A stretch of DNA of 64,000 bases from NCBI GenBank assembly GCA_964036295.1, contig OZ038463.1:26771069-26835068 (forward strand), in the 5' to 3' direction. Of this stretch, positions 12,300 through 61,728 are shown piece by piece; the stretch's first letter is position 1; each line of letters starts with the position of its first letter. Below the pieces are notes generated by a model. It did not search any database, was not told where the DNA came from, and saw only the letters and a list, made by a program, of their open reading frames with translations. Position numbers and translations under genes: made by a program. The stretch is from Plumapathes pennacea. Taxonomy: Eukaryota; Cnidaria; Anthozoa; Antipatharia; Myriopathidae.

Positions 12300-13240
12300 T
12301 TTTTCTCCGTTAACTAAGATTTTCTTCGTTGAGCATGCGCGAGCCCTATGCGACCAAGCCTGTCGAAGCCTCGTTTCAAAGAACACCGTGGGCACAAAAG
12401 ACCTGTTCAATTCTATTCAATATTTGTTGATTTTCGAGGTGTTCAAGGAATAACACGTCTATTTCTTTTAATTTCAGTTCGAGTCGCATCGTCGGCAATG
12501 AGTTTGCCTCCATCTGCCAACAACACTCTGTAAGTACCTTTTTGCCCGTGTAATTAGTGTATTAAATATATACATTCCTTTCCGTTATAGATGAAGACAG
12601 TAATCGACATATACTTCTTTCCGTTTGCGTTGATTTCTTGAAAACTGTTTGCTTGACAGAAAAAGTTTGCTCGTTTGCGTCTATTTCTTTGACAGACAAA
12701 AGTCGCCAAGGTTTGCTTGTTGTTCGCTTTTATCCTTGACAGAGAACTAGCTGAGCTTTGTTCGTTGTTCATTACCAAAGGGAATATTCTGTAAAACAGG
12801 AATTGTGTCCTGAAACATAGCCCGAGTATTTGATTTGGCTGGTTGAATTTTTCACCGAATTGTCTAGTATATACTCTTCTGTGGTAATACCTTGGAGCTA
12901 GATTTTGTTCGTACTGGTAATACGAAAAGTTTTGTAACTGACAAAACAGCGGCTTCATTAAACGTTGATGGTTTATATTTTTGCTCTAAAGCGATGTTTC
13001 AAGAATATATTTCCAAGGTAACACAATACAATCTATCTAGTACATCTCTGCGAAATATCAAGTCATCACGTTATATTTTGGGACACCGAAAGACAGGACA
13101 GTGTGACTGTGCATACACTTTTAACAAATACATATGTATGACTTTGGAGGTCCAGCGTAACCTTAACTTGGTTCATATGCTGTAGCATGATGCGAGTTCT
13201 CTTGAAAGTTAAAATAGCCCTTTTAATATTTTCTTGGCTA
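12300..13240. other. Non-coding, no recognised gene
   Basis: Left flank of the Harbinger element. A short ATG-led stretch at 12499-12531 ends at a good donor (CT|gtaagt) and could be a small upstream exon, but nothing supports its expression. No terminal repeat of the Harbinger element could be recognised. Confidence 0.3.
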
Positions 13241-13248
13241 GAAACAAG

Positions 13249-13865
13249 ATGGAATGGACAAACGCACATGAAGTCCTCGGCCGAGAAATTCTGGCTGTTG
13301 AGCCATACACAGCCAAAGAAAGATCTCCAAAAAGAAGCTTTCTATTGGAGTCCATTGCTGCAAACTTGAATATACTTGAAGTCCCTAAATTTAAGGTCGA
13401 CAAAAGGTCCGTGAGAGACCACTTCAATAAAGTCCTGGTTCCCAAATACAAAAAGAAACAGAGTGAAGAAAAAAGAGCTAGCGGTATAAGCCAAGAGCGG
13501 GAATTTAAGGCAATGGAGCGGATGAGTGAAACAAAGAAAAGGAAAAGTGAGGATGGCAGTGAGGGGAAAAGAAAGCGGCGTTCGAATGGTTCAGACACTG
13601 TGGCATATCTGAGGGAGAGGAATGAAATGGAAGCAGCCTTTCGAAGGGAAGAGATGGAATTAAAGAAGAAGGAATACGAGAGGGAAATACAGAAACAAGA
13701 ACAACTCGAACACCAGAACCAGAGTATGCTACTAGCGTTGGAAAGGCAGAACCAGCAACAAAAACAGCAATGCAGCAATTCCAAATTATGATTGCTCAAC
13801 AACAGCAGCAACAAAACCAGTTGATTCTCAATTTATTGGACAAGATTGCAGGTTCTAAGAGTTAA
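13249..13865 (+). pseudogene. Myb/SANT-like partner protein of PIF/Harbinger
   Basis: First ATG at 13249. The N-terminus (MEWTNAHEVL, REILAVEPY, SPKRSFLLESIAANLN) and following KFKVDKRSVRDHF form the trihelix Myb/SANT-like DNA-binding domain that accompanies PIF/Harbinger transposases. It helps bring the transposase to the element ends in the nucleus. A long charged Glu/Arg/Gln coiled coil follows. The open frame ends at 13791, but homologous sequence continues in another frame (FQIMIAQQQQQQNQ, LILNLLDKIAGSK) to a stop at 13863-13865, so an indel near 13755-13770 truncates it. It is convergent with the transposase at 14316-15023, the usual Harbinger layout. Confidence 0.7.
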
Positions 13866-14315: not shown

Positions 14316-15023
14316 CTACACGAAATATTCCTCCAGTGTGGGTGGTTCTAGGTTACAGAAAACTGACGTTTGGTTTCCATACAGGCAAGTTAGGCTGTTT
14401 CTTAGCAGGGCACTTACAATATACATTTTGTTAATTGTGCTAAGACCAATCTTTAAATTCTTTTTAAAGTCTATAAATTTAAAACACTTGACAATGTCAC
14501 CAAAGATCCACTCTACTGAGACACGCACTTGACTCATGGATTGATTGAATGCCTGCATTTCTGGTGTTAAATGTGCATTTCTAAAGGGAGCCTGTAACTG
14601 TGGTCTCAAGGGGTAAGGCGGAATCCCCATAAATGCACATAGGTCTGCCAGTGGGTGAGAGAGCATATTGCCTGAGGTCATTTAGCAAATTGGACTCTGC
14701 CAGCATTGATGCATCGTGCCTCCTTCCTTCTGAAAAAATATAAATAAAATTTAAATAAGAAAAATAGGATATATAAAAATCATTTCATAATGAAAACAAT
14801 ACTGTACATGCACTTACCGTACATGCACTTACCGTACATGTTTGCGATTATTCCATTTGACAGAGTGACAGACTGGAATTTTAGTGCGTGGACTCTTTTG
14901 TGCCCGTTATAAACAGTCCTCTGGTGCTTACCGGGTCTGCAAATAGGTCTAACCGTACCATACACGAACCCAAAACAGTTATTTAGAGCTGCGCCTTTCT
15001 GCGATATAGCATCCGCATAGCAT
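14316..15023 (-). pseudogene. PIF/Harbinger transposase, C-terminal half (DDE_Tnp_4)
   Basis: From 15023 the strand encodes YADAISQKGAALNNCFGFV, then YGTVRPICRPG, YNGHKRVHALKFQSV and IIANMY. A short intron follows (donor GTAAGTGC near 14815, acceptor TTTTTTCAG near 14730), then GRRHDASMLAESNLLNDL, CIYGDSA, YPLRPQLQAPFRNAHLTPE, SVEWIFGD and a C-terminus ending PPTLEEYF. The first catalytic Asp (family F-x-D-G-T-V) is replaced by Tyr. The second (Y-G-D) and the Glu of VEW remain. A one-base insertion at 14615-14616 shifts the frame between GDSA and YPLR. The N-terminal half lies at 19553-20002, separated by an inserted element. Confidence 0.85.
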
Positions 15024-15025
15024 CA

Positions 15026-15041
15026 GGAGAAATGTTGGACA
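15026..15041 (+). repeat. Left terminal inverted repeat
   Basis: GGAGAAATGTTGGACA pairs with the right end at 19525-19540, with 13 of 16 positions identical on the opposite strand. Confidence 0.55.
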
Positions 15042-15179
15042 TTTATAACCCGCGCGCCATTGTCAGCGGCTCAAAGGTTAGCAGGGAAACGTGTTTCTTG
15101 TGACATTCTCAACAAGTTAAGCAGTGCGGATATTTTATTTGGAGAGAAAAAGCCTCGTCGAAGAGTTAAGATAAAGCTC

Positions 15180-16084
15180 ATGGGTTATTTTGAGGCGGAA
15201 CGATTGATTACGAGCAGAATCACTGACCAGGTAAGGCGTTCTTTTAAACAACGTGGTTGTATCCGAATTCTTTTTTAGTTTATGTGGAGGTTAATGTCAA
15301 GTTTCTGGGACAGGAAAAATACTACTTGGTGAAGTGGAAAGGCTACAGTGAGTTTGAGTCGACATGGGAACCAGAATGCCACGTTTCGCCGGCATTATTA
15401 AGGTAAATAACATTGGACCCGAAATGGTTACAAAAGTGTACTAACTGTATGATCTGGCATGTTAACCTATAAGGCAACACGAATCATGAATTTGGTGTAT
15501 GGATACTGAAGTATTAAAACTGCGAAGACAACTGCTAGAATTAATTTCTGAATTAAAAAGTATTTCTGAGCATAAAATATTGAGAATTCTAACTTATATT
15601 AATTTTCATTTTTTTCCTTCAAAATAATTATTTACAATTATTGAACATATTTATTATTTACAGGTACTTCAACAAGCCCAAACCAACGCCTGAAATCATT
15701 CAAGGGTCTGTTGATCGATTTAAGAGGGCAATCCTTGAAGCTTTGCGTGGGAAAGGTGTTGTTCAGACACTTTCAATAGAATTTCGGCATGATATTTTCA
15801 AATTCCTATTTGGGAATAAGAACAGAATGGCTGAAAGCAAGCACTGGACCTTGTACAATGATGATGATATTGGAGCTTCGTTCTGGTCAACAAATTGGGA
15901 CCGGTTGTACAACCAACATGGTGAAGGACATATGATAAAGTATCCTCTCAAAATGCGATGTTTCTTCAGTAAGACGCCAAAGAGATGTGCGTTGAATAAC
16001 AAAGGCACAATGGTTGAAATACAAAGAACATATACAGAAAAGTTATCTGTACAATTCATCAAGACCTCATGTTCATGCATATAA
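15180..16084 (+). CDS. Chromodomain protein, three exons
   Basis: Exons 15180-15230, 15290-15402 and 15664-16084 join into 194 codons, with matching phases (0, 2), GT donors and AG acceptors. The chromodomain occupies about residues 3-55: [41 protein letters not shown], including aromatic residues of the methyl-lysine cage (Tyr/Phe at the start, W in VKW, W in STWEP). The rest ([34 protein letters not shown]) is unfamiliar. An AG at 15277-15278 competes with the acceptor I chose at 15289; only 15289 keeps the chromodomain in frame. The open frame extends upstream to 15060 without ATG, so a start in an earlier exon is possible. It may target the element to histone-methylated chromatin; that role is inferred. 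Confidence 0.65.
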
Positions 16085-16334
16085 TGAAGTAAGTTTTGTA
16101 CTTTGCAAATGCAATGTTTAGTTACTGTAAATGGAGTGTTCTTATATATAGTGTGCATATCACACTGCTCAATATGGTGCTTTATTTGTACGTGTCTTGA
16201 TGAAATCAAATGTTACGCTGCTATGTGATCTCATCATTTCTTCCAAGCACTTGAGGGTGGTTACTGCCAGAGATTTAGTTACATCCTCAATGGTTCTTTT
16301 ATGTCCCTGCAGTTCTTCAGTTGTACCTCTCATT

Positions 16335-18904
16335 TCAATTACCAGTAGATTCATTTTGCTTTAGAAGTGAAACTAAGTCCTCCTTCTTGAGCTTTGATAC
16401 CCCCTTTGATTTGATTCCTCTTTCCCTTATTAGCTTCCTAAGCTCAGAAACTGTCATCTTTTGATATTCCTGGAGGTCATCAAAGGATTCTGGTTGTTGT
16501 GTAATGTCATCAGAGAAACTAGTGTCACCAAATTTTGCCCTTTTTTCTTGCCTCAATTTTTGGATTTCTTCATTCCAGTACTCTAGTTTTCTCTTGACAT
16601 AGCAGCCCCTTTCTCTCTCATGGTGCTTCAACTGAAACTGTCGGTTTTCAGTGGTGAGAATGTCACAGGCTCCATCCCATTTGTTGGATTTCTGAAAAAA
16701 AAAATTTCTTCGCGCAGTCATTATTCTTCTCAACACCTTGCCCTGTGAACTTCTTGAAACACCCATGATCCTCGATGAACTTTGGAATGTGATATGGCAT
16801 GCAATGCATGTATGGGGTCACTCGTGGCCTTTCATAGCCCATTCGTTTTCCCCGAAGAGAACAAAATAGATTAATCCAGGCTGTGGCTTTCTCATAAATC
16901 TCTGTGGCAGAGTTGCGTTGAAGTTCAAAGTTGGTTAGCATGTCATAAAGTTCATCAAATTTAGTCCAGATGTCCACAACCACTGAACATGTGTCTGGGT
17001 ACAGTAGCTTGTGCAATTGGAGGGGTAGTTCTTTGAGCAATTTTTTCCTTTGGGAACCAAGCAAACTTGTGCATTCCTTTTGGTTGCTAGACGATCCATC
17101 AGCATTTCGTTTGTTCCAGACTGAAAAAGTGATTTCCATTTGATTAATAATTTTCACCAGCTCCTTGGTGTAATTAGATGACCAGTTTTCTCTTGGTGAC
17201 TTGATGAAGTTTTCAGTAGATTCCCTTTCCTCACATTCAGTTAGCACATTTTCTAGCAACCTGTCTGTTATTCTCAGCAGCAAGAGTAGTTCATCCAGAA
17301 CAACATGATCCAGTTCAATGTTTAGAAGTGGCTCATGAATGCAGCAAAAATTGTTCTTTTTCAGCTTTGCCATATCCTTGATTTCTTGTAGTGTTCTTTT
17401 GATTGGCTCTGAACAATAAAAATACTTTGCCTTGGTCATGTCGTACCTCTCTTGTTTTGGTATCTTGCACCATAAGCATGCATATTGGGAGGTAGCGCCA
17501 CTAAGGCCCATCATCATTAGAAGGAACTTCATGTCCCCTCCCAGAAAGAATTCCAGTTTGACAGATTGACCATCAACAGTTGTTGTGCCTTTGTCAATTA
17601 GATTGTTTACTTCATTGAGAATTTCTCGAAAGGATGACTGGAGTGTTTGATAATTTTCTGAACCATTTACAATGGCAACAGAACGGTTGTAATTGGGTGA
17701 CATGACTTTTTCCCCCAATTGCAAGAGTGAAAAAGAAAAAAATCATGAAATTGGTTGACCTGGACATTCGGGCTCCATCTCCACTCAGTTTTACTTTGAT
17801 GGGCTCATTGTCACTTAGAGTTCCACCTCCCTTGAAGAAGTCAAGAATACTATGCTGTAGGGTGGCTTCAAAACTAGAAACTTGTGCCCCTGGTAGAAAT
17901 CCTGGGGTCCTCTCAATGTGGCATACTTGATTTATGTCACACCTCATTTGCTTGACCAGGTAAGACTTGGGCAATCCCTCTGTTGTTATTGTGAGCTCAT
18001 GATAGAAATCATCACTAACACAAAATTTATCTAATAGGTACAAGACACTCTCAAGTTTATGTTTGTCTTCTTGAGAAAGTGAGGTATATGAGCCACCGGT
18101 ACCATGGTTTTGAGTGGGAGTGCTGTCATTGCAGTGAACTGTGCGCTCAATCCCTTCAGAATCTTTCACCCTGAATTGAGACAATTCAAGTCCAAAGGAT
18201 TTGCAAAACCATAGTGCACACTGCACTTTACTTTTTAAAGCTTTCAGTTTTCTGTTTTGCTGTTTTGGTCCAACTTCATTGAACTTTTTGCTTTGGCACT
18301 GGAGAGACTGGTTTCTTTCCAGGGTATCAATATACTCCCTCAATTGCTGATTCTCATTGTGGATTTCTTCACACTGTGCTTCCAAAATCTGCTTGGCACT
18401 CACAAGCTCATTGTAAAGTTCCTTCAATTCCTTTTCTAGGTTTGAATACTGGGTTTTCCAACTCTCAAGCTCTTCCAAATTTTGCTTTCGCTGGGATTTT
18501 AACTCCTGCACCGATTCACTTTCTTCTTTCTTTACACATAACTTGGATGTTTTATTTTCAATTTTGTGCCATGTGCTGCCACGTGCTTGGCGGTAGGACT
18601 GACTCACTCGGTTAGAAACAACCCGCAGCCTTTCATTGATTCTCTCACAGTCACTTTTCACTGCAAAGCAGTGGTCAGGGATAGATGCATTGAGCAAGTC
18701 GATGTAATTTATGCCATCCTCTTTGATGTCAGTAAGCTTCATTAGCATATTCCATTTTTTAAGAATTGGCCAAGGAATCTCTATAGAATATGCTATTTCT
18801 GCATTTTGAATCGCCTGCCTTCTAACATATGACAAGGGGTAATCAGTTGTCGATAATTCCACCTTGTATTTGTCGATCGTGTATTGAGAACGGGCATCTG
18901 CCAT
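16335..18904 (-). pseudogene. RAG1/Transib-like transposase with coiled coil and SAP domain
   Basis: ATG at 18904 (context acaATGGCA) and stop at 16335 give about 855 residues if two single-base run expansions are ignored. In order: an N-terminal helical region; a coiled coil (about 125-200); a first acidic motif LSGDGARM (Asp 376, codon 17777-17779); FFLGGDMKFL (Asp 457, 17533-17535) followed by ACLWCK, a C-x-x-C pair at 476/479; an ELDHVVLDEL segment; TPYMHCMPYHIPKF, then GQGVEKNND (Glu 725, 16729-16731); and a SAP domain (815-849: MTVSELRKLIRERG). The spacing D, D with C-x-x-C, then H...E-x-x-N parallels RAG1/Transib. Frame breaks lie in a 7-A run (17736-17742) and a 10-A run (16695-16704) on the plus strand. 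Probably a DNA-cleaving transposase; no biochemical family is assigned. Confidence 0.65.
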
Positions 18905-19062
18905 TGTTGTAGTTAAAAAAACGCGAAAATCAAAAACAGTCAGGCGCAAAGAGAGGGACTGGGAACCTACATACCACAACAAACATGGCGACCAGAGTGG
19001 AAGAACATAGTGCGACAAAAACTGCCCGATCACAAGAGTTATACGGACGCTTGGTATTTAAA

Positions 19063-19161
19063 TATGGCGCCTGTGGCTGAAGAAACTTATCGAAATGCCC
19101 TCGCTCAGAGAAGAAACAGCATGAAAATTGGAGACCTTTTTTGCGTGCTATCGATTATTTG
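19063..19161 (+). other. Short ATG-led frame at right end of inserted element
   Basis: A 32-codon frame (MAPVAEETYRNAL...) opens just outside the divergent minus-strand transposase and ends in TAA/TGA-rich sequence. It may be a leader exon or chance. No product is assigned. Confidence 0.15.
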
Positions 19162-19524
19162 AACCTTCAACTCGATATCGAAAGCTGGACATTTTGGATT
19201 GGAGGGGAATAATACACCTTAACTTGGACTCAAAACACGCATATGGTGCATAAATTAAGAAGAAACAGTGTGCTCACAGAGCGTGAAATGAAGGTAAGTT
19301 TTACCGCTCAAAAGTAGAAAGAAGGACTCGAAATACTGTATCGAGTTACGGTTAAAACGATGTCTTTAAGTCATAACTACAACTACCGAGCTGGACATTT
19401 TGCCGGTTTTTCGTCAGGAACAAGTATTTATGCAATTTGTGATCTCTTCCATACATTTTTCTTTATTGATCTTAGAGAGGGCCAACGGATTGTGTGCGTC
19501 AATGCGCATGCGTGGCGGCCATCT

Positions 19525-19540
19525 TGTCCGATATTTCTGC
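19525..19540 (-). repeat. Right terminal inverted repeat
   Basis: The minus strand reads GCAGAAATATCGGACA, inverted with respect to 15026-15041. Harbinger coding sequence resumes outside it at about 19553. Confidence 0.55.
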
Positions 19541-19552
19541 CAATGGGTCTGA

Positions 19553-20002
19553 AGTGCAACGGGATTGAGTACAATCCATTCTGATATCTTTTCTCGGTGA
19601 TTTTCGTATATCGAGTCTATTATACCATTTGATATCATGCTCAGTTGGGGGTTGGCCTTCCAAAACGATGAACAATGTCACTATATTGACACGGATAGGC
19701 CAGGCGTTTCAGAACAATACAGAGGCTTTCAGTTTTCCCAACAGCAGACCTCTGTGGACACTTGAAGACTTCAGGTACTCCAAAAACGTCTGCCAGTCGA
19801 TGTCTTACTTTTCGACTCTAAACTCGGCTTTGCACTCGGCCTCATTCATATCTTCAAGATTAAATTGGTCATAATCTTGGTACGGAAAGTCAGGATTCTT
19901 CGATGTATTTTCCTCGTACAAAGCGATAAACTCATCGTCTGTAATGTGGCCCCTGTCCAAAGCCAACATAAGCATTGATCTGGCGTCTCGAAATGAAGAC
20001 AT
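19553..20002 (-). pseudogene. PIF/Harbinger transposase, N-terminal half
   Basis: ATG at 20002 opens MSSFRDARSMLMLALDRGHI, DFPYQDYDQFNLEDM and ECKAEFRVEK, typical of Harbinger transposase N-termini. The frame then changes near 19805 to RLADVFGVPEVFKCPQR, LCIVLKRLAYPC and DIVHRFGRPTP. It changes again near 19650 to MISNGIIDSIYENHREKISE and NPVALQT. Reading stops at the insertion junction, and the remaining half is at 14316-15023. At least two frameshifts, so inactive even without the insertion. Frame without ATG extends upstream to 20098. Confidence 0.75.
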
Positions 20003-21365
20003 CTCAAAGAGTTCTACTGCGCATGCGAATTCCAAACACGCCGCCGTCACCCTCACGTCGGCGACGCGAGTTGAGAGGTTTTGCCGTCGTCGCGACAATG
20101 TGAGTAACTTTGGCCTTATTTGTTGTTTTTGTGTACTTTTTCATAAATGAGTTTTAAATATGTTCAAAACTTACCTGCCAGTTTGTAAGACGATCTAGAG
20201 GGGTTTGTTTTGCTTCTTTCCTCAGCAATAACATTACCGAACCACCTGAGCCAGTGGCCACAAAAGATAGCTTGTAAGCGATCTTTGATCTTTGGCACAA
20301 CTTTCCGATCTCAAGAGGAATGTTTTATTTTTTAATCCCGGCAGAGCTAATAGCTGCTTGAAAATCTCTCAGCTTGATTTATACAACCTGCAACTTCCCT
20401 TCGGAAAAACTCGTAATATAAATTGTATTACGGGTATTTTGACCCTTGTGCTGATGTGTGGAAATTTAATAATGGGTGAATTATATATGGGGTTACGGGG
20501 GCAATAAACTAGCGAATATGATTGTGTAAAGAAATTGTGCATGTTAGTGCGTGATAACATGTTGCAGCGCTAAATACGGTTGGGGTCGGGTTGTTGAACT
20601 GTGAGGAACGTGGTAAATGGGCCGAAATCTGGAATTGGTAACCTGTGGTGCGCACGTGCGTTGTGAAACGATGGAAATAGGAGGCGCTGTGACAGAGAAA
20701 ACCAAGCGAAGAGCGAAATGAAAGCGACGAAACGGAGGGATCGGCGTATACGTGGAATAAAAACTAATAATATATAACTTGGGGATGGGGCGGGTGGTTG
20801 GGGAGAGCGCTCGAAAAAATGTGGTGAACCGATGACCATCATGAGTGGTTCGTCCGCCGAGGCAACCGTGTTATTCTCATCAGGGGCATAGTAACGTGGT
20901 TGCTCCATGAAGGTGAAAAGTTCCTTCGATGGTACGTGTTTCGAAATGGTAGGCGCGCGCCATCCATGCCCGACACGTTCGGCGGTTACGAACTTTTGGC
21001 CCTGGCCGAGTTGAGGGTGAGGGAGCAAAACCGGGGGTCGATGGTCAAGAGTTCAACACAGGACGGGGAGGGGGAATAGGAGAAGAAAGTTACCTCGAAA
21101 TATCCCCGAAGGCCGGTATGTTCTAACGGCGTTGAAGCGCTTTGCAAGGTCCTTCGTGGATTGCATGACAAGCAGCGGCAAATGAGGTCGTAACAGGGGC
21201 GCGTGGGACGCTAAGTTGCGTTTGGTTTGGGGGGGCGTGTGTTGTTGTGGCCAATAGGAAGTGCGCACCGATAATTATTAACGATTATGGACGGGGAGGG
21301 GGGGGGCAGGGGGTTTTTGGTTCAAGGCATTACGTCATCCTGGACGGTGTTGTTCGTGTGTGTCC

Positions 21366-26315: not shown

Positions 26316-27998
26316 TTGCTCGCGAGGGCCTGGGGCCCACGAGAGCTTAAAAATGGGCATTTTTATTTATTTATTTTTTCCTTTTTGTGGGTCGAGAATC
26401 AGCACACGGTGATTGGTTCATATTATCACGTGCTGGGCGATGACGTAATTGACTTCGCTAAACAACTCGAGATGTGGCCAGTGAATTGCTCGTTACTTGT
26501 GTGTAAAAGTTAACTGCATCCCATCCAAACTCAACACCATTTGGCTCTGTGGAATATGCACGGATAAACTGGATTTTCGGGAACGATTTTGGCTCGCGTT
26601 CACCGCGAAAGCTTTGAGAATAGCCGTAAACAAATATTTGATGGTACCGCTGTCGCCGATGAATATTTAGTCCCGACGAAACTTTCTGTGGCGACACGAA
26701 ATACTTTTGGGAAGATAACAGGGCGAAAGCAGAAACCAAAGCTACGGTGAGCTTTAGCCTTAAAACAATGACGCTTTATGCTTTACTCTGTACATGACAT
26801 CTGTTGCCTCATAAAATTCTTCTGCGTATCGTACATTGCCTGTTGAAGTGTTTCTTTCATTCGATCATGTAGCCTTTGTTTCGCAATGGTCAGTGAATAC
26901 CAGAAATGAAAAATACACCGAAATAATTCTGAGGATTGAGTTTGCAGTCACAAATGGACTGAACACACTGTGAACAAAAGCGCAATAATATTGTAAACAT
27001 CTCTCGTGTGACATTCCTCGCTTTCAATTTTATATTTGTTACAGAGCACGAATACTCGAAAGCCTGATAGAAAAAACGTATTGAGTTAATAAAAGAAAAC
27101 ACATGAGTAGTGAAGCGAAAAAGTAAACTGCATCCCATTCAAATTCAACGCCATTTGGCTCTGTGGAATATGCACGGATAAACTGGATTTTAGGAAAAGA
27201 TTTTGGCTCGCGTTCACCGCACAAACTTTCTGTGGCGACACGAAATACTTTTGGGAAGATAACAGGGCGAAAACAGAAACCAAAGCTACGGTGAGCTTTA
27301 GCCGTAAAACAATGACGCTTTATGCTTTACTCTGTACATGACATCTGTTGCCTCATAAAATTCTTCTGCGTATCGTACATTGCCTGTTGAAGTGTTTCTT
27401 TCATTCGATCATGTAGTCTTTGTTTCGCAATGTTCATTAAATACCAGAAATGAAAAATACACCGAAATAATTCTGAGGATTGAGTTTGCAGTCACAAATG
27501 GACTGAACACACTGTGAACAAAAGCGCAATAATATTGTAAACATTTCTCGTGTGACATTCCTCGCTTTCAATTTTATATTGTTACAGAGCACGAATACTC
27601 GAAAGCCTGATAGAAGAAACGTATTGAGTTAACAAAAGAAAACACATAAGTAGTGAAGCGAAGGCTGGATTAATCGTGGCCTCTGATTAGAAATATGAGT
27701 CAAGGTCAAACTGTCATAATCGATTGTGCATAAAAAGATATGTCACGCATTCTCAAGATGCAGGGTTGCTCAACCTTTAAGAAGCAAGTGTATGAGTGTT
27801 GTAATAATAATTTTTAGTTTAATCAAGGTGTCAAAAGAGCAAGGTGTCAAAAGCCAAGTTCTCTATACTGTGTGATATTTTTATGGTGAGAAATTGGAAG
27901 TCTCTCTTGGGAGTTCCGCTCTTGTCCCTACTTTCCATTTTATATTCTGGTCTCGACCCAACTCACGCCGCGAGCTCACTGGCAAGGCCAGTCTAGTT
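26316..27998 (+). mobile_element. Helitron-like family B, two overlapping copies
   Basis: Copy 1 starts near 26316 ('gggcctggggcccacgagag') and runs to about 27115. A second copy lacking the first part begins near 27120 ('aactgcatcccattcaaat') and continues to 27998. The end reads ACTGGCAAGGCCAGT then CTAG before T: a 6-bp-stem hairpin directly followed by CTAG|T, a Helitron-like 3' terminus. The same ends are at 29957 and 63104, and inverted at 60997. No Rep/helicase coding found. Confidence 0.55.
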
Positions 27999-38640: not shown

Positions 38641-41600
38641 GTATTTTGCTTCTTCTTTCGCTATCTGAAAGATGTACTATCGTCTGTTACTTTTGTAGGC
38701 AAACACCTGAGGCGCATGAATTCGATCAGCTCCTCGGTGATCCCTCCTTTGTGGATTATATGAACACTTTCCTGGCTCTTCCAGTAAGTCAGCTGGCAGA
38801 TTATATACGTTGACAAAATAATAATATAGGTTATTGAGGTGCGAGCAGAGTGTGGCAAAGAACACTTAACATTTTCTTCAAACAATTAAAAACAAACAAA
38901 CAAAAATTGGAGTGAAGAAATAACTCCTTGTTGTAATCATAATATTCCAAGTTTTCTATGGTGCGCTGCAGTTATACTTTATTGCTACGTTAGATTTGTA
39001 GAACTGAGTAAGCTGACATATTAAGAAATAGCGTGGTTGTTCAGATTTCTGCGGCATAGGGGCCATTTGAAAAGTAGTTTAGTCACAGACTCAATTTCAT
39101 ATTCACAGTTTTGAGTTCAAATTAATGTTGGATTTTACATCTTTATTGAAATCTTTATAACCAACCACTCTTTCCAGTAACTCTTATAAAAATTGACTTA
39201 TTAGTATTTGGTGAAGGATTCAAGAAATCCTTGACTACTTTATAACATATCGGATTTACCATGCTTGAACATTCATGATCCTCTTAAGCTGATGTTACGC
39301 TGGTCGATTTGCAACGATACGATGTTGCACTATAACTCGTTCAGGTGTAACACCCCATTGCGAACGATTCTTTGCGATTTTTGCTGTGCTGCAACGCGTT
39401 GCAAGTTTTTGAAAGCGATTCAAAAACTTGCAACACCGTTGCGAGAATTTGGAGCAAATCGGCGTTGCAAATCGACCAGTGTAACACCACCTTTTAAAGT
39501 GACTAAAATCACTTGAAATTAGGACGGTTTGTATTCTCACCAAAGTCGGAATTTGAAAATGGTGAAAAGGATATGAACTTTATGGCGAGTTTCTGACACG
39601 GTGGCACTCGCCAATAACTTTTCAACAATCCATAAGAAACTATGTTCTTTGTCCAGTCTTCCACACTTTGGACTCCGAAAGTGTAGTTGGTCAATATAAA
39701 ACCAAACCTGTGCATTTACGATTTCTAGGTATTCAGCAGGACAATAACTTACAATCGCGAAGAGGCCATTTTTGACATCGACCCGCCTGTCCAACGGACT
39801 CGCTATGTGAGTGCAACAGTTTGATGTTTTGACATACGTTTATAAAATGATGTCGAGCTGTCATTTGTCTTTCTTGTTGAACAGTAATAGTCAGTAGTAT
39901 TGTGGTATATGAATTTTAAATTTATTACCTCCTTGACTATTTTCTCGTCCGAAACACCTTGCTTTATATGTTACCAAGGGAGGATGAATAACTCTGTTCC
40001 AAGGGAAAAAATTCAAAATTGGATAAAAACCGTTGCGCCGCGTAATGTCTGGTAATGCATGTTAGCAAATCCTAAAACAGTGTTTGAAACTCACGTTGGT
40101 CACGAGTATGTGGGTTTTAAGGTGGCTCCAAAGGGTTTTGTAAATGCGCGTTTGTTCAACATTTCGGAGATATATCCGTTTAGCTGTTTGTTTATGTCTT
40201 TTTGACATCAAGGGCTGGAGTTGCACAGCTCGTTTTCACGCGCAAGGACACTATGGCAAACGCATGCGCACTTGTCAATCTTGTCGAGTCACTATTTTGT
40301 ATTTGATGGCGCAATACGCACATAAAACATCAAGTTTCTATCTGCCATTTTCCAAAGTCTCCTTCGGTGAATGTGTCTTAGATTTTGCAGGCAAACGAAG
40401 ATTATATCCGGTCTTTGTCATATTTTATTTTAATGGCAATTTATGGAGCAGATTATTTCTTACTGGCTAGCGGGACCCCCGTAAAATACGGTGATCGGAT
40501 TTTTTTTCCTATATATATTTTTTTTTTCTGTTTTTCTTTTTTCCTTTTTGAATTCCGCATTTCGAGCATCTCGAACGCAGGTTACGGTGTAAAAGTACAA
40601 ACTTTTTGTAACTCAACTTGTCGAACCACCGATCGATGGGCATCAAAATTTCCCCGTTTTTTTGAACATGCGGCCATCCAGTCACCTGTCAGCTGAAATT
40701 CTCTTTCTAGACTCAAATGGAATTCATGCAAGATACCGTGGTTAACGGTATCGAATGCTTTTTTGAGATATAGGGGAAAACTGCAATATTAAATAGACCT
40801 TGGTCCATATTTATGACCAGGTGTTTGTGGAGTTCAGCATTGCAGTGACAGTCGAGTGCATTTTTCTGAAGCCAATCTGATTCTCTGATAATATGTTATT
40901 TAGCGTTAAATAGTCATACAGCTGATAGTACAGAATTCTTTCGAACACTTTACTGATAACGGGGAGTTCAGAAATAGGCCTGTAGTTGTCAACAGAATTT
41001 CGTGGCCCGCTCTTATGTAAAGGGCTCACTCGGGCATTTTCCAATCTGATGGAAATTGACCACAAGATATAATTTTATTAAATAAGTTCGTCACAGACTG
41101 GGAGATAACTGGCGCAGCATATTTTAGAAGTCTGGCAGATATACCGTCCAGACCAGTGGCCTTAGAAGTACATAGGGTATCAATAAGTTTAAAAACTTTT
41201 CGGCTGCTAGTCGGTTTAAATTCAAAAACGCAAGAAACAGGTCTAACAAAGTATTTAAAGCTATTACAATCACTATTTCCGGACGCAAGCTTTGGTCCAA
41301 TGTTTACAAAATGATTATTAAAAGTCTCGGCAATTTCAACTGAAGATGTTACGCTTTTATTGCCAATCTTGAGTTCGGATATTGTTTGATTGCATTTTTG
41401 TTTACCGATTAGCTGGTTAATTGTTTTCTATGTACGTTTGGGGTCACCCATTCGCTTATTTATCTGACTGTTACAATAAGTACGTTTAGCACCCTTGATC
41501 ACAATGGTCGCCTTATTACGAAGTGCTTTGTATGCTATCCAGGAGTCTGGGTGTTTTGTGATTACAAAATGTCGTTTCATTTTGTCACGTTTGTGTATAA

Positions 41601-59600: not shown

Positions 59601-61728
59601 CCATATCCTCACTAGTGAGAATATCGTTGGCATCATTTCCCGCTTTTGCACGGTTGTTTGTGCAATTTCTCGTAAAACACTCGTGCCTAATATAATAAAA
59701 AGAAAATTACACGGCGGCTTGAAGATATGAATTTTATTTTCGAGTGGTAGAAACAATATTTTAAGAACGAGCGAAGCGCTCGTTTGTAAAATATTGTTTT
59801 TACCACTCGAAAATAAAATTCATATCTTCAAGCCGCCGTGTAATATCCTCTATATATTTTTTTGTCTGAAAAGGGACGGTTCCCTTACGCTTTGCTAAAC
59901 TTTTTTGCATAGGTATCCGAGCTAATTTTGCCAAGTGTAGCCTGGTCGTACCGCCCAACGTTTAGGCAACTCCTTGAGGTTGGAGCTTTCTTGGGGGAAG
60001 GGAGGCGTTTGAACAGTGCCCAAATATCCTCACTTAATCTGATGTAGAAAATACAATATGTAGAATATATCATATATTCGCATGATAACATATTTCTGAG
60101 ACAAACAAGCAGCTCTCGTTTCAGTTTAAATTTGTTCGCACTCGAACAAACGTAATTGTTCGTGGGGGCCTGGGGCCCAAGCGCCCAAGCGAGCTTAAAA
60201 ACGCAAGTTTTTATTTATTTATTCTTTTTTATTTTTGTGGGTCGAGAATCAGCACACGATGATTGGTTCATATTATCACGTGCTGGGCGATGACGTAATT
60301 GACTTCGCTAAACAACTCGAGATGTGGCCAGTGAATTGCTCGTTACTTGTGTGTAAAAGTTAACTGCATCCCATCCAAACGCAACACCATTTGGCTCTGT
60401 GGAATAGGCACGGATAAACTGGATTTTCGGGAACGATTTTGGCTCGCGTTCACCGCGGAAGTTTTGAGAATAGCCGTAAACAAATATTTGATGGATACCG
60501 CTGTCGCCGATAAATATTTAGTCCCGACGAAACTTTCTGTGGCGACACAAAATACTTTTGGGAAGATAACAGGGCAAAAACAGAAACCAAAGCTACGGTG
60601 AGCTTTAGCCGTAAAACAATGACGCTTTATGCTTTACTCTGTACATGACATCTGTTGCCTCATAAAATTCTTCTGCGTATCGTACATTGCCTGTTGAAGT
60701 GTTTCTTTCATTCGATCATGTAGTCTTTGTTTCGCAATGTTCACCGAAATAATTCTGAGGATTGAGTTTGCAGTCACAAATGGACTAAACACACTGTGAA
60801 CAAAACCGCAATGATATTGTAAACATCTCTCGTGTGACATTCCTCGCTTTCAATTTTATATTTGTTACAGAGCACGAATACTCGAAAGCCTGATAGAAGA
60901 AACGTATTGAGTTAATAAAAGAAAACACATAAGTAGTGAAGCGAAGGCTGGATTAATCGTGGCCTCTGATTAGAAACTAGACTGGCATTGCCAGTGAGCT
61001 CGCGGCGTGAGTTGCGTCGAGACCAGAATATACTAAAATGGAAAGTAGGGACAAGAGTGGAACTCACAGGAGAGACTTCCAGTTTCTCACCAGAAAAATA
61101 TCACAGAGTTATAGAGAACTTGGCTGTTGACACCTTGCTCAAATGAAACCTGATTAAACTATAACTTATCATTACAACACTCATACACTTGCTTCTTAAA
61201 GGTTGAGCGACCCTGCATTTTGAGAATACGTGACATATCTTTTTATGCACAATTGATTTTTGACAGTTTGACTTGGACTCTTTCTAACGAGAGGCCACGA
61301 TTAATCCAGCCTTCGCTTCAATACTTTTGTGTTTTCTTTTATTAACTAAATACGTTTCTTCTATCAGGCTTTCGAGTTTTCGTGTTCTGTAACAAGCGAG
61401 GAATGTAACACGACACTTGTTCACGTCAATATTATTGCGGTTTTGTTCACAGTGTGTTCAGTCATTTGTGAACTGCAAACCCAATGCTCAGGACTATTTC
61501 GGTGTATTTTTCATATCTGATATACAATGACCATTGCGAAACAAAGGCTACATGATCGAATGAAAGAAACATTTCAACAGGCAATGTACGATAAGCAGAA
61601 GAATGTTATGAGGCAACAGATGTCATGTACAGAGTATAGCATAAATGCCATTGTTTTGCGGCTAAAGCTCATCGTAGCTTTGGTTTCCGTTTTCACTGGC
61701 CACTTCTCGAGTTGTTTAGCGAAGTCAA

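Follow-up and report, generated by a model that had tools for sequence, protein, structure and literature searches.

The 64,000-nucleotide stretch of Plumapathes pennacea DNA analysed here (contig OZ038463.1, positions 26,771,069 to 26,835,068; hereafter the window) contains a 4,525-bp transposon at 15021–19545, nested in a Harbinger-like transposase gene. We interpret it, with a probability of about 0.8, as a two-gene cut-and-paste DNA transposon, in which an enzyme with the RNase-H fold of RAG1 and Transib is accompanied by a co-travelling chromodomain subunit or accessory factor, and whose insertion adds 0 or 1 bp to the target. In our reading it represents a lineage of RAG1-fold cut-and-paste transposons that is new to the Anthozoa and that acquired its chromatin-reading partner, whose role we infer, independently. 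Whether the combination of a RAG1 fold, a convergent histone-reading partner gained independently of RAG2 and near-blunt (0–1 bp) strand transfer makes it a new superfamily is, in our judgement, an even bet. An initial annotation, made from the letters of the window, had described the insert, its inverted ends, its two convergent genes and the split Harbinger gene, all of which we find; it foresaw neither the short target duplications nor the parallel with RAG1 and RAG2.

Borders, copies and target sites

The element begins with the left terminal inverted repeat 5′-CATCAGGAGAAATGTTGGACA (15021–15041, plus strand) and ends with the right terminal inverted repeat, which reads 5′-CATTGGCAGAAATATCGGACA on the reverse strand (19525–19545); the two are identical at 16 of 21 positions. 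Other copies, whose termini were located by allowing up to 3 mismatches, carry the same termini. At this limit the left-end pattern has 69 matches in the genome and its reversed control has 0, and ends related to the right repeat occur in other families. The borders shared with other copies lie 5 bp further out on each side than 15026–19540, which the initial annotation had taken to be exact. An 8-bp duplication just outside those inner borders was rejected, because in other copies those bases are part of the ends.

The interrupted Harbinger-like transposase gene lies on the minus strand, with its upstream part at 19546–20098 and its downstream part at 14316–15020, the latter with a DDE_Tnp_4 match within 14316–14681. 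Four Harbinger paralogues (L029–L032) are uninterrupted across the junction, providing empty sites that also fix the span of the element, and are a single base shorter there than the flanks when joined; in L031 and L032 a second base is missing as well, 8 positions from the junction. The continuity of the Harbinger reading frame that had been proposed is seen in L029, which reads ...NPAALQTYADAI... in a single frame. Because the joined flanks carry one extra G relative to the empty sites (G at 15020 and at 19546), the target duplication of the window copy is 1 bp. Adjoining the Harbinger transposase, an open frame with a Q-rich tail (13234–13791) is perhaps its second, Myb-like gene; a Pfam scan of this frame gave nothing above cut-off.

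The element is multicopy: a nucleotide search of the genome (290 Mb, 24 contigs), in which 40 of 407 first-look candidates were scored, gave at least 62 matches. Three large copies occur besides that of the window, one full length at 97% (C1), one with an extra insert and 5082 bp between its ends (C7), and one that is split, with 6319 bp between its ends (C8). There are also tens of non-autonomous copies of about 1 kb that match only about 289 bp of the right end and about 44 bp of the left end (for example, C1:314811-315849). Both ends were found, 946–1055 bp apart, in 16 of 20 short copies fetched; the 4 without one recognizable end, and 1 of 10 copies of a later set with a damaged right end, were left out of the sample. 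A search for further copies sharing both ends had been proposed, with copies ending elsewhere named as the outcome that would speak against the element, and the copies do share both ends.

Terminal-repeat searches of 26 merged stretches recovered both ends only in the window family (4 stretches) and in three other families (C10 11616777-11621143, C4 21913329-21918596 and C8 7963035-7968784), and one end in six more loci. All nine of these other loci, three with both ends and six with one, read CATNNCCAGAAAT, and the ends of the window family read CATCAGGAGAAAT and CATTGGCAGAAAT. Judged from these sequences, the common end form across families is CATNNSSAGAAAT, where S is C or G. Two of the insertions elsewhere in the genome, those of the C1 full-length copy and of the C4 family element, independently struck a repeat that has several occurrences in the window (26699–27621 and 60550–61694), and one short copy struck a very abundant repeat (1140 first-look genome candidates) of which window positions 39305–39474 are a copy.

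Target duplications were examined in 32 copies with both ends, comprising the four large copies of the window family, 16 short copies, 9 from a further set and three from other families. The bases at −1 and +1 are the same in 19 of 32 copies, against the 28.5% expected from how often neighbouring bases in the window are equal (binomial P = 0.00026). Only 2 of 32 copies match over 2 bp and none over 3–12 bp, rejecting a conventional target duplication of 2–12 bp. The empty sites that the initial annotation had proposed to look for were found at six junctions: three show a gain of 1 bp (the window copy, L011 and L018), three show no gain (L002, the C4 family and L026) and none shows a loss. As the six junctions show 0 or +1 base and none lost, insertion leaves 0 or 1 bp. 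Span lengths mislead in this respect, with the best full matches falling about 4 bases short of the joined flanks in one set and most running 4 bases over in another; because the junctions themselves read 0 and +1, these 4-base differences lie elsewhere.

The two genes and their pairing

The larger gene (16335–18904, minus strand; ATG at 18902–18904) has no evident intron, and its window copy carries two frameshifts, at about 17711–17748 and 16690–16705, as judged by comparison with L004. All features of its product given here are on the minus strand. The motif KLSGDGARMSR (17759–17791), presumed to contain the first catalytic D, has D in 30 of 30 aligned homologues. The second catalytic D (GGDMKF) with the CLWC zinc pair (17464–17550), and the HxxxxH zinc pair with the catalytic E (GQGVEKNND; 16717–16815), align with RAG1, the stretch from second D to E by profile. 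The conserved active-site and zinc columns are D364, D445, C464, C467, H687, H692 and E712 in A3 numbering. The nearest solved folds to the modelled transposase are RAG1 and Transib. The RAG1-like assignment made by the initial annotation is thus supported both by the predicted fold and by profile comparison. Its suggestion of a coiled coil and a SAP domain corresponds to a long helix predicted ahead of the transposase core and a SAP match after it (16356–16466; Pfam SAP, 7.8e-06, 25.8 bits against a cut-off of 23.9), the latter above cut-off in the window protein and weaker in its homologues.

Pfam scans of the large protein and its homologues gave no transposase family above cut-off (for A3, among the 25 of 138 families shown). 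The best match to Pfam RAG1, in P0036, had an E value of 0.034 and 12.7 bits against a cut-off of 25, and this family is not among the 25 shown for A3; RING is likewise absent from the families shown for the window and homologue proteins. DDE_Tnp_4 had no match at E up to 1 in three transposase frames, whereas the adjoining Harbinger frame matches it at 3.4e-08. Pattern matches numbered 43 in one scan of viral contigs and 28 in one of prokaryote genomes, none of them confirmed as a relative.

The smaller gene is encoded on the plus strand in three exons. Exon 1 (15117–15230; donor CAG|GTAAGG at 15230) encodes the N-terminal strand of a chromodomain by homology to P0044, with 15117 as its provisional 5′ bound. 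Exon 2 (15290–15402) encodes the KWKGY...TWEP core. Exon 3 (15664–16084) encodes a conserved C-terminal domain without Pfam match, and the stop, and was recovered at 11 loci including two near-duplicate pairs. The product is 42% identical to the sea-anemone protein Actinia tenebrosa LOC116288732 (P0044), in which a Pfam scan found Chromo (2.4e-13) and nothing else, neither kelch nor PHD, in agreement with the chromodomain called earlier. In GYFEAER and KWKGY, the residues Y/F, W and Y that a methyl-lysine cage would require are visible by eye, as a putative cage. A Tritrichomonas foetus chromodomain protein, the third of three partner hits (E 3.1e-6, 40% covered), was set aside as sharing the chromodomain only.

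The two genes recur together. A protein search of the genome with the transposase, in which 59 of 166 candidates were scored, gave at least 73 hits in 34 clusters; one with the partner gave 45 hits, 29 of which reach past residue 100 and form 27 clusters, the other 16 being dropped. A partner lies within 3 kb of 15 of the 34 transposase clusters, and all 15 pairs are convergent, 63–1074 bp apart; four of these loci are window-family copies, and two further pairs of loci are near-duplicates. With near-duplicates excluded, transposase identity between the compared families is about 29–49%. The chromodomain exon is on the strand of the partner at 9 of 11 compared loci, and over the 11 loci the divergences of transposase and partner correlate with r 0.79, a value reached in 3 of 5000 shuffles. 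Adjacency of the two genes, raised in the initial annotation as possibly constant, therefore holds in its orientation for every pair within 3 kb but not for every cluster, as detailed below. That annotation had named the two genes standing apart as an outcome that would speak against the element, and the unpaired clusters do so in part. Three homologues of the partner match it in a single exon and have no transposase detected within 3 kb (C2:19652829-19653380, C9:8822740-8823078 and C2:19062189-19062731); one has a 247-residue open frame, and they are possibly orphan or domesticated copies.

Proposed mechanism and alternatives

In the model that we propose for end binding, catalysis and excision, the transposase would bind the CATNNSSAGAAAT ends and then excise the element, whose 3′ ends would be joined to target phosphates that lie either directly across from one another or a single base off, adding 0 or 1 bp to the target. 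The fold, the active site and the empty sites make excision of the element by the transposase, followed by its insertion with next to no stagger, the most likely course. The chromodomain protein, which on this reading has accompanied the transposase as the family diverged, may be its physical partner, serving as a subunit or accessory factor and binding methylated histone tails. Its purpose may be to steer the transposase to, or away from, certain chromatin, a role like that attributed to the PHD finger of RAG2 in guiding RAG1. From its domain, the repeated pairing and the RAG2 parallel, the chromodomain protein would most likely read histone marks for the transposase.

Several observations weigh against this interpretation. 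No partner lies within 3 kb of 19 of the 34 transposase clusters (15 of them single hits). The chromodomain exon was not found at C2:22544331-22549879, and at C7:4706870-4711652 the sole chromodomain match is on the opposite strand, yet this locus entered the divergence distances. Without two near-duplicate loci, the correlation of divergences is weak (r 0.26, 183 of 5000 shuffles); it is carried largely by two close pairs. The structure model of the partner is poor (mean pLDDT 43.7), with its C-terminal domain lacking an assignment. As for the enzyme, the fold comparison used the homologue P0019 rather than the frameshifted window protein, no sequence alignment places the first catalytic D against RAG1, and the distance from first to second D is 81 here and about 108 in RAG1. 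None of the four window-family copies read has a single open frame over the whole transposase, and two near-full-length transposase matches contain stops, so that present activity is no more than possible.

The chromodomain gene could instead play no part in transposition, being a passenger or captured from the host. Cargo genes are known from transposons, and 11 of the 27 partner clusters, some with long open frames, have no transposase detected within 3 kb, a count that also tells against a steady partnership. We nonetheless consider this unlikely: the paired loci are convergent in 15 of 15 cases across families at about 30–50% protein identity, a separate chromodomain exon stands ahead of the C-terminal-domain exon at 9 of 11 compared loci, and a neutral passenger would be expected to be lost or replaced over such divergence. 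End joining of excised DNA at random breaks, in place of near-blunt strand transfer, would fit a duplication length that varies between 0 and 1 bp and flanking columns of short copies in which no target motif is seen. Such joining, however, usually leaves deletions and filler, and as all six tested empty-site junctions lost no base and gained at most one, we hold it to be distinctly improbable.

It is improbable, too, that the element belongs to a named superfamily, as an unremarkable though divergent member of Transib, Chapaev, Plavaka or RAGL. Its nearest solved folds are those of RAG1 and Transib, its termini start with CA, its C(2)C and HxxxxH are motifs of the CMCT clade (PMC12730594, in excerpt) and its left end, CATCA, resembles that of PlavakaB. 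Yet its target duplications are 0–1 bp rather than the 5 bp of Transib and RAGL or the 2–5 bp of the clade, its ends are CAT and not CAC, Chromo was the sole Pfam family detected in the partner homologue, and no Pfam RAG1 match reached cut-off. Here it counts against our interpretation that the element is set apart from EnSpm, Chapaev and Plavaka by their descriptions and not by sequence comparison. A tyrosine-recombinase or rolling-circle element of Crypton or Helitron type would likewise leave little or no target duplication, but deserves next to no credence, being already contradicted by an enzyme of RAG1-type RNase-H fold with conserved acidic residues and by the inverted ends.

Comparison with known systems

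The relatives compared here are taken from excerpts of the papers cited. Transib, to whose superfamily Chapaev and RAG1 have been assigned by Kapitonov and Koonin (PMC4411706), has 5-bp duplications and 5′-CAC ends (PMC7204232). The window element shares with it a RAG1-like transposase core and has neither of those features; a chromodomain partner is not mentioned in the excerpt of PMC7204232. Chapaev and Chapaev3 have a Chapa zinc-finger domain and, in some, RING. Transposases of the CMCT clade have a DDE core with C(2)C and H(3-4)H between the second D and E, mostly 5′-CA..TG-3′ termini and 2–5 bp duplications (PMC12730594). Compared by description and not by sequence, the window element is similar in its DDE core with C(2)C and HxxxxH and in its CA ends (CATCAGG and CATTGGC; CATNNCC in other families), and unlike in its 0–1 bp duplications. 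PlavakaB (5′-CATCA..TGATG-3′, 2–3 bp duplications) resembles the left end of the window element but not its right end, CATTG, or its 0–1 bp duplications. Spy elements are eukaryotic DNA transposons reported to lack target-site duplication (a title cited in PMC12730594) and belong with Harbinger to the PHIS group (PMC4482050); they are alike in leaving little or no duplication, but their enzyme is of PHIS type, whereas the window fold is of RAG1 type.

The enzyme thus has what defines the transposases of RAGL, Transib and the CMCT clade, but the duplications do not fit, and we therefore file the element in none of them. Literature searches over titles and abstract openings, with Repbase outside their scope, found no described RAG1-like/Transib or other DNA transposon with a chromodomain that matches the element; those on 1-bp or absent duplications, on Plavaka in animals and on a new cnidarian superfamily found no description of it.

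The closest parallel is with RAGL elements, which have convergent RAG1L and RAG2L (kelch, PHD) genes, CAC ends and mostly 5-bp duplications (PMC7204232, PMC9435367), apart from one algal element whose two genes point the same way (PMC9435367). Like them, the window element has a RAG1-fold transposase, a convergent second gene whose product has a domain of histone-reading type, and inverted ends that open with CA; it operates as a RAG-type two-gene transposon does. Unlike them, its partner is a chromodomain protein with no kelch or PHD match, its ends are CAT and its duplications 0–1 bp, and its transposase core is flanked by a long helix and a SAP domain. Two features, the 0–1 bp target duplications and a chromodomain in place of a kelch–PHD partner, are without counterpart in the described relatives that we found.

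The antibody-gene recombinase is thought to derive from a transposon carrying RAG1 and RAG2 as a pair, and the reason for that pairing is an open question. If the element is indeed a new superfamily as outlined above, chromatin readers have become partners of RAG1-type enzymes on more than one occasion in evolution, and the stagger of the RAG1 fold is able to fall from 5 bp to nearly zero. Structurally, the 0–1 bp duplications make it possible to test what determines target stagger in this fold; for gene delivery in the laboratory, near-blunt insertion is of practical interest. A RAG1-fold transposase that is convergent, as RAG1L is with RAG2L, with the gene for what appears to be a chromatin reader of another type is a natural comparison for what the histone-reading subunit contributes.

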